This document shows, piece after piece, positions 2,841 to 60,253 of a stretch of 64,000 bases of DNA. The stretch is taken from contig NZ_CP157000.1 of NCBI RefSeq assembly GCF_039905635.1, positions 3,038,001-3,102,000 of the forward strand, written 5' to 3'. The notes beneath the pieces were generated by a model. The model did not search any database. It was not told the origin of the DNA and saw only the letters and a list, made by a program, of their open reading frames with translations. This DNA is from Microbacterium sp. ProA8 (GTDB lineage Bacteria > Actinomycetota > Actinomycetes > Actinomycetales > Microbacteriaceae). Each line of letters begins with the position of its first letter. Within the stretch, counting starts at the first letter, position 1. A program made the translations under genes and the position numbers.

Positions 2841-3236
2841 TCAGCCGCGTGCGAACAGCATGACGAGCGACGTCACCAGAGCGACGACCCCGAGGCCGAG
2901 CATCCCGACGGCGAGCAGTGCCACCGCGCGCACGGCCGGCGATCCCTGCGTCAGCCGCATGCGGTTGCGGGACCCCCGGCGGATGAAGATGTCGGTCATG
3001 TCGGCGTCGCCGATGTGGTGTTCCTGCTCGTGGGTCAGATGCGCCTCGCCCACGCCGCCGTCCTCGTCGAACCAGCGCACCAGACGACCGTGCTCGGACG
3101 CTTCGACGACGGCCCGCACCGGTACCCAGGTGCCGTCGAACAGGTACATGATGAGCGCGACTCCGGCGAGCAGCGCCCCCACGCCGAACCCGATCCACGA
3201 GAAGATCTCGGCGAGGGCGTCGATCGCCTGGGGCAC
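2841..3236 (-). CDS. Small membrane protein of unknown function
   Basis: A 131-residue protein with an N-terminal helix (IFSWIGFGVGALLAGVALIMYLF), a central soluble part of about 60 residues rich in Glu, Asp and His, and a C-terminal helix (VALLAVGMLGLGVVALVTSLV). The frame stays open to a GTG at 3299, but that stretch encodes the tRNA-Thr terminator and the tRNA 3' end. The GTG at 3236, preceded by AAGGA at 10 bases, is therefore the better start. I do not recognise the family; the layout suggests a two-pass protein with a cytosolic or external middle domain. It lies downstream of tRNA-Thr on the same strand. Confidence 0.65.
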   Translation of the reverse strand: MPQAIDALAEIFSWIGFGVGALLAGVALIMYLFDGTWVPVRAVVEASEHGRLVRWFDEDGGVGEAHLTHEQEHHIGDADMTDIFIRRGSRNRMRLTQGSPAVRAVALLAVGMLGLGVVALVTSLVMLFARG

Positions 3237-57578: not shown

Positions 57579-57854
57579 ATGCTCATCAACAAGGTCCGCT
57601 TCGACGGACAGACCTTCCTTCTCGCGCCGGATCAAGACGTGGACGCGCTGAAGACGGCGATCGTCACTGCGGTGCGCGAAGGCTCGGATTTCGTAGACTT
57701 CGCAACCGTGGGACACGGCACCATCTCGCTGCTGGTGACGTCTTCGCTGCCCGTGCGATTCCAGGTCATCGAACGCACCGAGGAGCAACTCCAGCTTCTC
57801 GAGGCAGAGCCGCCGCCCTTCGACGAAGACGCCTGGATCGAACACGGTTTCTGA
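57579..57854 (+). CDS. Small hypothetical protein
   Basis: A 91-residue acidic protein: MLINKVRFDGQTFLLAPDQ followed by DVDALKTAIVTAVREGSDFVDFATVGHGTISLLVTSSLPVRFQVIERTEEQLQLLEAEPPPFDEDAW. It looks like a compact alpha/beta domain with an acidic tail. The ATG at 57579 has GAGGG five bases upstream. I do not recognise the family. It is 186 bases upstream of the RsbQ-like gene, same strand; a link to that pair is possible but unproven. Confidence 0.62.
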   Translation: MLINKVRFDGQTFLLAPDQDVDALKTAIVTAVREGSDFVDFATVGHGTISLLVTSSLPVRFQVIERTEEQLQLLEAEPPPFDEDAWIEHGF

Positions 57855-58040: not shown

Positions 58041-58853
58041 ATGGCGGTCCTCGGTACGCGCGACGCGCTGCGGCGGAACAATGTGACGGTTTCCGGCGCC
58101 GCCGGCGGCCGCGCCATGATCTTCGCGCACGGGTTCGGGTGCAGCCAGGCGACGTGGGATCTCGTCGCTCCGCACTTCGAGACCGACCACAAGGTGATCC
58201 TGTTCGACCACGTCGGTGCAGGAGGTTCGGACACGTCGGCGTACGACCCGGGCAAGTACGACTCGCTGCACGGCTACGCCGAGGACCTGCTCCAGATCCT
58301 CGACGCGCTGGACGTCACGGATGTGGTGTTCGTCGGTCACTCCGTCAGCGCGATGATCGGGATCCTTGCCGCCAACCGCGACCCCTCGCGCTTCGGCGCA
58401 CTGGTGCTCGTCGGTCCGTCGCCCCGGTACGTCAACGACGGCTCGTATCGTGGCGGGTTCGAGCCGGACGACATCACGTCGCTGCTCGACTCCCTCGACA
58501 GCAATTACCTGGGATGGTCCCGCGCGATGGCTCCCGTGATCATGGGGAACCCGCAGCGGCCAGAGCTGGGCGATCAGCTCACCGCGAGCTTCTGCGCCAT
58601 CGATCCGGAGATCGCGAGGCATTTCGCCCACGTGACCTTCCTCTCCGACAATCGCGCCGACCTTCCGCTGGTGACCGTGCCGACACTGGTGCTGCAGTGC
58701 AGCGCAGACGCCATCGCTCCGGTCGAGGTCGGGCGATACATGCACGCGGCGATCGAGGGCAGCACGCTGTCGGTGCTCGAGGCGACCGGGCATGTGCCGA
58801 TCCTGTCCGCACCCGATGAGGTGGTCGCTCAGATCCGCGGGTATCTCGGGTGA
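58041..58853 (+). CDS. RsbQ-like alpha/beta hydrolase
   Basis: A 270-residue protein closely following the RsbQ/KAI2/D14 pattern: MIFAHGFGCSQATWDLVAP, VILFDHVGAGGSD, DSLHGYAEDLLQILDALDV, VGHSVSAMIG with nucleophile Ser101, LQCSADAIAP with Asp223 and TGHVPILSAP with His251. The spacing matches the B. subtilis RsbQ triad (Ser96, Asp219, His247). RsbQ is needed to activate the PAS phosphatase RsbP in the energy-stress pathway; its ligand is unknown. Here the partner gene, overlapping by four bases (GTGA), is a PAS-GAF-GGDEF protein instead. GGAG lies five bases before the ATG. Confidence 0.9.
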   Translation: MAVLGTRDALRRNNVTVSGAAGGRAMIFAHGFGCSQATWDLVAPHFETDHKVILFDHVGAGGSDTSAYDPGKYDSLHGYAEDLLQILDALDVTDVVFVGHSVSAMIGILAANRDPSRFGALVLVGPSPRYVNDGSYRGGFEPDDITSLLDSLDSNYLGWSRAMAPVIMGNPQRPELGDQLTASFCAIDPEIARHFAHVTFLSDNRADLPLVTVPTLVLQCSADAIAPVEVGRYMHAAIEGSTLSVLEATGHVPILSAPDEVVAQIRGYLG

Positions 58854-60253
58854 CGCCGACGAATGACCCCGGGTGGTTCCACCACGCCCCCTGCGGCCTG
58901 ATCGCCACCTCGCTCGAGGGCGTCATCCTCGAGGCGAACGACACGATGCTCGACTGGACAGGCTTCAGCTCGGAACAGCTCCAGGGCCGATCGTTCGCGT
59001 CGCTCCTGGATCCCGGTAGTCAGCTCTTCTACGAGACCAGGCACGCGCAGGCCCTGCCCTTGCAAGGCCGGCTGAACGAGGTCGCGCTGACGATGATCGG
59101 TGCGGACGGCACCCCGCTGCACGTTCTGATCAATTCGACACGCGACAGCGCGGCGGGGCTGATCCGCATCGCGGTGTTCAATGCGTCCGGGCGCATCGAG
59201 TACGAGCGGGACCTCCTGCACGCTCGGCGGGCGGCGGAGTCGTCGGAGGCACGGGTCCGGGTCCTCCAGGAGGTGTCGCGCACCTTCGGCGTCAGCGCGA
59301 GCGACGAGGACGTCGCGCATTCCTTCGCCGAGGTCGCCCGAACGGCGTTCGCCGCGCGCGACGCGGGAGTGCTGCTGCTCGACGACGACGGCGAATTGGC
59401 TCTGGTCGGAGGCACCAATCCGCTGGCCGGGCTCGTTTCGCCGATCGTCAGCCTTCGCAACAGTCCGGACGTGGTCGTCGTCGACGAAGAGACCGCGACC
59501 CGAGAATTCCCGCAGCTCGCCACGGCATTGCGCGCGACCCGGCTGGCGGCGGTCAGCGTGATGCCGCTGCTGGACGACCACCGGCGGCTGGGGATCCTGG
59601 TCTGCTTCTTCGGGCGCGCCCGGCGGTTCGACGACCAGTTCTTCGATCTGCAGAAGGCACTGGGGCGCCAAGCGTCGCAGACGCTGGTGCGCGTGAGACT
59701 GCAGCGCCAATTGGCGTTCCTGGCGCTGCACGACCAGCTCACCGGCGTCGCCAACCGACAGCTTCTCGAGCAGAGCCTCGCGGAGGCCCTGGAAGCGGCA
59801 TCCGCGCGCGATGAGCCACTTGCCGTGCTGTTCCTCGATGTCGACGATTTCAAGTCGATCAACGACCGGTTCGGCCACGCCGTCGGCGACATGGTGCTCG
59901 TGGAATTGGCTCTCAGGCTGAGCGCCGGAGTGCGCTCCGAGGATGTGGTGGGCCGGATCGGCGGGGATGAATTCGTCGCCATCTGCGCGAACGCCGACGA
60001 GGCCGCTGCGACGAGCATCGCCGAGCGCATCCTGCGTCTCACCAACGAGCCCATCACGATCGCTGCGGGGCAGATCTCGGCGTCCGTGAGCGTCGGCGTC
60101 TCGATGTTCCAGCCCGGGGTGCACCCACGCCCCGCCCCCGAGCAGCTGCTCGTACGCGCCGACCGTGCGATGTACGAGTCGAAGGGCGCCGGCAAGAACC
60201 GCTTCAGTTTCGAGACGCCGCTCCGACTGCTCCCCACCGACGGCACGGCGTGA
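58850..60253 (+). CDS. PAS-GAF-GGDEF diguanylate cyclase
   Basis: A 467-residue cytosolic sensor enzyme. PAS domain at about residues 10-115 (GLIATSLEGVILEANDTMLDWTGF..., with SQLFYETRHAQALPLQG, a sequence type I associate with the PAS domains of RsbP-like proteins). GAF domain at 140-285. GGDEF domain at 290-455: active-site GGDEF at 371-375 is intact, and an RxxD inhibition site (RSED, 362-365) lies five residues before it. It should make cyclic di-GMP from GTP under PAS/GAF control with product feedback. No EAL domain. The GTG overlaps the RsbQ-like stop, so the two are co-translated. Confidence 0.93.
   Translation: MTPTNDPGWFHHAPCGLIATSLEGVILEANDTMLDWTGFSSEQLQGRSFASLLDPGSQLFYETRHAQALPLQGRLNEVALTMIGADGTPLHVLINSTRDSAAGLIRIAVFNASGRIEYERDLLHARRAAESSEARVRVLQEVSRTFGVSASDEDVAHSFAEVARTAFAARDAGVLLLDDDGELALVGGTNPLAGLVSPIVSLRNSPDVVVVDEETATREFPQLATALRATRLAAVSVMPLLDDHRRLGILVCFFGRARRFDDQFFDLQKALGRQASQTLVRVRLQRQLAFLALHDQLTGVANRQLLEQSLAEALEAASARDEPLAVLFLDVDDFKSINDRFGHAVGDMVLVELALRLSAGVRSEDVVGRIGGDEFVAICANADEAAATSIAERILRLTNEPITIAAGQISASVSVGVSMFQPGVHPRPAPEQLLVRADRAMYESKGAGKNRFSFETPLRLLPTDGTA

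Follow-up and report, generated by a model that had tools for sequence, protein, structure and literature searches.

Hydrolases of the RsbQ type are known from Bacillus subtilis, in which RsbQ acts together with RsbP, a PPM phosphatase for RsbV that carries an N-terminal PAS domain. The catalytic triad of the hydrolase is needed, as shown in earlier work, and the PAS domain of RsbP interacts with RsbQ; F55A abolishes this interaction, and L48A, F55A, Y59A and E72A are null (PMC3183031). In the same work, beads carrying RsbP captured RsbQ out of B. subtilis extract, though not RsbQ in purified form (PMC3183031). Nadezhdin, Brody and Price in 2011 described 45 RsbQ homologues encoded beside an RsbP-type PAS protein with one of three outputs, PPM phosphatase, histidine kinase (HK) or diguanylate cyclase, the last in Gram-positive as well as Gram-negative bacteria (PMC3183031). 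The signal read by RsbQ-RsbP was unknown in 2011, and two models of the ligand were put forward there: the hydrolase makes a ligand for PAS, or the hydrolase is itself the sensor (PMC3183031). A 2025 paper restates the coupling of RsbQ-PAS to GGDEF cyclases and presents an AlphaFold2 model in which RsbQ sits between the PAS domain and the linker of RsbP (PMC12143880). The subject of this analysis is a gene pair of this kind, an RsbQ-like hydrolase and a predicted diguanylate cyclase, in a 64,000-nucleotide stretch of DNA (the window) of Microbacterium sp. ProA8, a soil-type actinobacterium of the family Microbacteriaceae.

Both genes, and all features located below, are on the + strand. The hydrolase (270 amino acids; 58041..58853) runs from ATG at 58041 to TGA at 58853 and the PAS-GAF-GGDEF protein (467 amino acids; 58850..60253) from GTG at 58850 to TGA at 60253, the four shared bases (58850..58853) reading GTGA, with the cyclase start codon overlapping the hydrolase stop codon. 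These positions, the triad Ser101, Asp223 and His251, and the GGDEF and RxxD motifs were found as a preliminary description of this DNA had given them. That description also proposed that an RsbQ-PAS input is wired here to cyclic di-GMP (c-di-GMP) instead of a phosphatase. Linkage, conserved catalytic residues and homology support the proposal; the wiring itself is not new, having been published in its basic form in 2011 (PMC3183031) and taken up again in 2025 (PMC12143880). Among the titles listed in a literature search, none concerns this locus or comes closer to it than PMC3183031. What is added here is clade-level detail: a GAF insert, Arg at position 59 of PAS (published numbering), a frequent EAL neighbour and hydrolase-free cyclases. 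The module is conserved and probably working, and its clade-specific features make it testable.

RsbQ of B. subtilis (1wom) is the top solved-structure match of the hydrolase by sequence (E 1.7e-86) and also by fold (50% identity, root mean square deviation 1.2 Å); gene order is identical and the class of PAS domain is shared. The difference from RsbQ-RsbP lies in the output, which is here a diguanylate cyclase in place of the phosphatase, with no direct link to sigma B implied. In common with the published RsbQ-PAS modules, the pair has the RsbQ homologue directly upstream, the RsbP-type PAS as the most N-terminal domain, GGDEF as its output, equivalents of L48, F55 and E72 and no DIT motif, and a helix behind PAS is tentatively predicted. 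Tyr59, Pro62 and Pro86 of those modules (PMC3183031), however, are Arg, Gln and His in the Microbacterium PAS. A further difference is the GAF domain that separates PAS from GGDEF; PMC3183031 does not use the word GAF in its main text (the text only, not the figures). MtG of Moorella thermoacetica resembles the present protein in that a stress-switch input is wired through helices to a GAF-GGDEF cyclase, the input there being RsbT on an RsbU N-terminal domain, unlike RsbQ-PAS (PMC12143880).

The pair can be thought of, with reasonable though limited confidence, as a translationally coupled RsbQ-PAS sensing module with predicted diguanylate cyclase output, in which the liganded hydrolase switches the cyclase by way of PAS. 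The hydrolase pocket would bind a small molecule and possibly cleave it; the liganded hydrolase would dock on PAS close to the F-alpha helix and the helix that follows PAS; and docking would alter the cyclase dimer through helix 113-145, GAF and helix 262-293, so that synthesis of c-di-GMP would go up or down. Ligand, contact and direction of switching, whether on or off, are proposed by analogy, the contact, ligand dependence and helix relay of the B. subtilis pair presumably applying here too. This interpretation is favoured because RsbQ is the nearest solved structure, because the genes are linked, because the triad, L53, F60 and E77 are kept and the DIT motif is lacking, and because hydrolase distances track PAS best, the long helices 113-145 and 262-293 are predicted, and a model of RsbP with RsbQ has been published.

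Linkage was surveyed in the genus, in the family and in a wider set of loci, with hydrolase counts that are lower bounds (the best 8 first-look candidates per genome having been scored in the genus, and 6 and 6 thereafter). Among 295 Microbacterium genomes (thresholds E 1e-40 for hydrolase and E 1e-12 for PAS) there are at least 27 hydrolases and 25 PAS places. A PAS protein follows the hydrolase in 27/27 cases, that of L025 being detected by a home-made profile and not by Pfam. Close relatives (at least 64% identity) make up 21/27 of these hydrolases and a second lineage (40-47%) the other 6/27; GGDEF is the output in all 6 second-lineage pairs by Pfam and in the other 21 by profile searches. 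Viewed from the cyclase side, 22/25 of the PAS cyclases are linked and 3/25 are without hydrolase. In 398 Microbacteriaceae genomes (PAS threshold E 1e-15), 53/54 PAS places lie directly behind a hydrolase, and 45 of the 47 distinct linked proteins kept are GAF-GGDEF proteins, the other 2 ending before the GGDEF domain. Hydrolases occur at no fewer than 69 places in the family, 16 of them with no PAS match at E 1e-15: G098 is among the second-lineage pairs already counted, G961 is at the edge of a contig and was left unfetched, and the other 14 (L151-L164) were retrieved. Of these, 13/14 have GGDEF together with a more distant PAS (4 with GAF, 9 with GGDEF and EAL in one protein), and no RsbP-type PAS was found behind the remaining hydrolase, L155 (G729:C7:288500-293500); another hydrolase in that genome is paired with a PAS-GAF-GGDEF protein (L151). 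The wider set comprises 139 loci, duplicates included, drawn from Microbacterium, its order, its class and the best 80 of at least 582 named genome contigs; PAS lies behind the hydrolase in 138/139 of them (exception L104), as judged with a profile seeded from 90 of the 139.

Chance adjacency of hydrolase and PAS cyclase is therefore rejected on the genus and family censuses (27/27 hydrolases and 53/54 PAS places, respectively). The linkage in related genomes on which the preliminary description had staked its proposal holds for most, though not for 3/25 of the PAS cyclases in the genus and 1/54 in the family. A four-base NTGA overlap joins 77/88 of the distinct GAF-GGDEF pairs, 26/52 of the PPM pairs, 18/36 of those with HK or other output and 6/10 of the GGDEF-EAL pairs. 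Gene fusion, considered as proof of hydrolase-PAS contact, was dropped: none of the 225 hydrolase open reading frames (ORFs) in the loci examined, duplicates included, is fused to PAS.

The hydrolase matches Pfam families PF12697/PF00561, and its single-chain model is confident (predicted local distance difference test score, pLDDT, 94.6): an alpha/beta hydrolase with a helical cap and a Ser-Asp-His triad. The nucleophile Ser101 (codon 58341..58343) lies in GHS at residues 99-101. Among 186 aligned relatives, Ser101 is kept in 185 and Asp223 and His251 in 186 each; L208 (G807:C5) is the sole hydrolase of the 186 with Cys replacing the catalytic Ser. The plant receptors KAI2 and D14/DAD2 belong to the same hydrolase family, with the same triad and 33-41% identity to the plant structures listed among the matches. 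Hydrolases of this plant type have an F-box protein as partner, whereas the partner of the bacterial hydrolase is a PAS domain.

It is possible, if doubtful, that the hydrolase makes a ligand or cofactor for the pocket of PAS and that PAS is the sensor (PMC3183031), a model that overlaps with the docking interpretation in so far as possible cleavage is part of the latter. Retention of the triad in 185 to 186 of the 186 relatives speaks for a catalytic role of this kind. Yet the plant relatives KAI2 and D14 function as receptors while keeping an identical Ser-Asp-His triad. Gly125 of the hydrolase (placed by a numbering offset of +5) also favours ligand production: it corresponds to Gly120 of RsbQ, where KAI2 has Ser119, and this difference is tied to reactivity with phenylmethylsulfonyl fluoride, by which Gly120 RsbQ can be modified (PMC3548789). 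PMC3183031 counts against it, in stating that neither a ligand nor a cofactor had been detected on the RsbP PAS domain. In 2023 a review still described the KAI2 ligand as undiscovered (PMC10504578).

In the cyclase, the RsbP-type PAS domain occupies residues ~10-111 (58877..59182; Pfam matches PF08448/PF00989/PF13426 over 10-97) and scores 147 bits with a hidden Markov model built from 90 hydrolase-linked PAS domains, the window PAS among them. The PAS end reads FNASGR in place of a DIT motif (DIT-like sequence occurs in 2/92 GAF-GGDEF proteins), and the RsbQ-PAS class is described as lacking that motif (PMC3183031). Residue numbering here equals published PAS numbering (PMC3183031) plus a constant offset of 5, so that C10, L48, F55 and E72 are kept as C15, L53, F60 and E77; the predicted F-alpha helix, with F60, R64 and Q67, comprises residues 55-72 (59012..59065). 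The 75% consensus at Y59 is a neutral aromatic, H or Y (PMC3183031; the letter is assigned to Y59 by the present reading of a legend), and mismatch with it marks a variant, not a non-member.

In a comparison of 190 distinct PAS domains, of which 186 have a hydrolase and 4 have none, the residue at position 59 largely follows the output. It is His in 52/52 PPM proteins and in 34/36 of those classed as HK/other, that is, matching neither GGDEF nor PPM (86/88 together), and Arg in 77/88 hydrolase-linked GAF-GGDEF proteins, that of the window included, and in 8/10 GGDEF-EAL proteins. The two HK/other proteins with Arg (L167, L191) are Microbacteriaceae genes ending before the GGDEF domain: the reading of L167 stops at the contig end, and that of L191 turns to sequence of low similarity inside GAF, taken here to be the cause of its early end. 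Position 86, at which P86A of RsbP gives a weak response (PMC3183031), is Pro in 62/88 GAF-GGDEF relatives and His (H91) in the window. The hydrolase column that best separates H-type from R-type modules is 35 (Asp in 87/89 H-type, Ser in 73/87 R-type), and the second best is 37, also in the loop that follows the HG pair. Covariation of column 35 with PAS position 59 was rejected as proof of an interface, the independent events being few, and is kept as a lead: on the tree residue 59 changes 6 times, and of the 4 independent pairs that result, 1.4 on average show the hydrolase residue changing in the same sense and none in the opposite sense (sign test not significant), and the eight R-type GGDEF-EAL modules retain Asp35, contradicting strict pairing.

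Pairwise distances among 77 R-type GAF-GGDEF modules provide a separate comparison. Hydrolase distances correlate best with those of PAS (r 0.635), then GAF (0.566), then GGDEF (0.490), and the partial correlations fall in like order: PAS given GGDEF 0.483, GAF given PAS 0.291, GGDEF given PAS 0.153. R-H after E-T was also considered as a strict mark of linkage and rejected; main-lineage linked Microbacterium proteins have ETRH or DTRH in 19/21 cases and ETRV in 2 (L009, L019), and the hydrolase-free cyclases carry ETRD, EERV, ETHL and, in L150, ETRH.

The remainder of the cyclase would serve signal relay and output in the proposed mechanism. A long helix (residues 113-145; 59186..59284) is predicted behind PAS, with pLDDT of 65-76 over residues 111-150, and runs into GAF, not into the output domain; a helical or coiled-coil link behind PAS is present in 36/45 of the published members (PMC3183031). 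GAF (PF01590) comprises residues 154-279 (59309..59686), helix 262-293 follows, and GGDEF (PF00990, E 3.1e-44) comprises residues 292-451 (59723..60202). The model as a whole has pLDDT 86.9 and a predicted template modelling score of 0.49, and placement of the domains relative to each other is therefore uncertain. The inhibitory-site (I-site) motif R362-S-E-D365 (59933..59944) ends five residues ahead of GGDEF 371-375 (59960..59974), the usual I-site spacing. That the protein is a c-di-GMP binder or a degenerate regulator and not a working cyclase is very improbable, since it keeps GGDEF and RxxD and matches the full GGDEF model with 151 bits, notwithstanding that 9/102 GGDEF-type proteins among the relatives mismatch GG[DE]EF. 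Those nine, all hydrolase-linked (L006, L064, L065, L156, L157, L159-L161, L163), are possibly c-di-GMP sensors or EAL-driven enzymes.

Several observations weigh against switching of the cyclase by the docked hydrolase. Y59, P62 and P86 are replaced by R64, Q67 and H91 in the window PAS, and the B. subtilis contact therefore need not carry over. The hydrolase-PAS distance correlation can be obtained from gene adjacency alone. Docking, cyclase activity and ligand of the pair in the window are themselves predictions. Finally, four related cyclases persist without a hydrolase: in G152, G246 and G295 of the genus (L030-L032) and in G725 of the family (L150), neither the genome search nor the fetched stretch contained one, and all four proteins retain PAS, GAF and GGDEF. 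In L030, ~15 codons at 2957-3061 match near the hydrolase start (up to 87% identity, E 4e-4) and lie 59 bases ahead of the start of a full-length cyclase; the hydrolase was therefore most likely lost there and the cyclase kept, to judge by this remnant. No such remnant was found in L031, L032 or L150. These genes show, as far as gene content can, that a cyclase can persist without its hydrolase partner, which argues against a strict need for it; such a cyclase could be a free-running or altered enzyme. The same four loci, and the L030 remnant in particular, are what would be expected if hydrolase and cyclase were merely co-expressed and the cyclase governed by a ligand of its own PAS or GAF domain. 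Mere co-expression is nevertheless unlikely in view of the linkage (53/54 and 22/25), the conserved four-base overlap and the precedent of RsbQ-RsbP.

The preliminary description had left open how often RsbQ-PAS is wired to a cyclase. Nearly every Microbacteriaceae pair examined has a GGDEF output, while most of the other loci examined have phosphatases or kinases. The wider set of 139 loci has 63 PPM outputs, 46 GGDEF and one GGDEF-EAL, 13 with a kinase-like motif and 15 unclassified. A new output class among the last was rejected: Pfam, applied to 7 of the 15 unclassified proteins and 3 of the 13 motif-called kinases, found kinase domains in 8/10, 5 of the 7 unclassified proteins being kinases. 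Of the two others, L126 has PAS alone in Pfam and L125 has PAS and GAF in a piece ending at the locus edge.

Of the close Microbacterium loci, 9/21 have a stand-alone EAL phosphodiesterase gene in the neighbourhood of the pair, divergent upstream in five (G241, G132, G216, G070, G101), upstream on the same strand in three (G161, G087, G124) and downstream in one (G225). The other 12/21 show no EAL, the view extending at least 3 kb before the hydrolase and 1.5 kb past the cyclase; in G117, G200 and G017 a second PAS-GAF-GGDEF gene is divergent upstream (that of G200 by Pfam). No EAL was seen in the second lineage, for which the view reached 1.5 kb upstream at five loci and further at the sixth. 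Beyond Microbacterium, 7/12 GAF-GGDEF loci taken from named contigs (L044, L046-L048, L050-L053, L057, L064, L065, L094; flanks of up to 3.5 kb, some ending at contig ends) have EAL, six of them divergent upstream. The chance of an EAL gene in a 6-kb neighbourhood is ~0.3%, reckoned from two per 4.37 Mb and ignoring shared ancestry. Hydrolase-free L030-L032 have EAL within ~1.1 kb, and the fetched stretch of G725 (L150) has none. There is no EAL gene within the window. The Microbacteriaceae loci with stand-alone EAL near the pair or near a hydrolase-free cyclase are L012, L013, L015, L016, L020-L023, L030-L032, L038, L039, L046, L050, L052, L053, L057, L094 and L227.

More tentatively, the Microbacteriaceae RsbQ-PAS input may constitute a dedicated c-di-GMP branch, marked by a re-tooled helix (Arg for His/Tyr59, Ser for Asp35), a GAF relay and the frequent EAL neighbour, with hydrolase, synthase and phosphodiesterase as one small-molecule-gated switch. 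If so, control of that switch would rest with a bacterial relative of the karrikin and strigolactone receptors. The output predicted for the module, a second messenger both small and countable, is an easier read-out in a search for ligands than the sigma B cascade; the small number of c-di-GMP genes in the ProA8 genome (two EAL matches and three GGDEF matches) favours such a read-out, and the cyclases that naturally lack a hydrolase provide ready comparisons.

A promoter scan gave 0 sigma-70-like sites, and 2 terminator-like matches versus 1.6 expected. A small ORF upstream of the hydrolase (57579-57854) was considered as a conserved third partner and rejected, having almost no matches: beyond the window's own copies its sole match in the loci examined is a weak one in L057, and a Pfam scan without the first codon gave no family. 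The other GGDEF proteins of the ProA8 genome are a long GAF-GGDEF protein and a phytochrome-type PAS_2-GAF-PHY-GGDEF protein beside an EAL gene; the locus of the latter with its stand-alone EAL, L218 (G000:C1:3902500-3911000), is possibly a light-read c-di-GMP pair.

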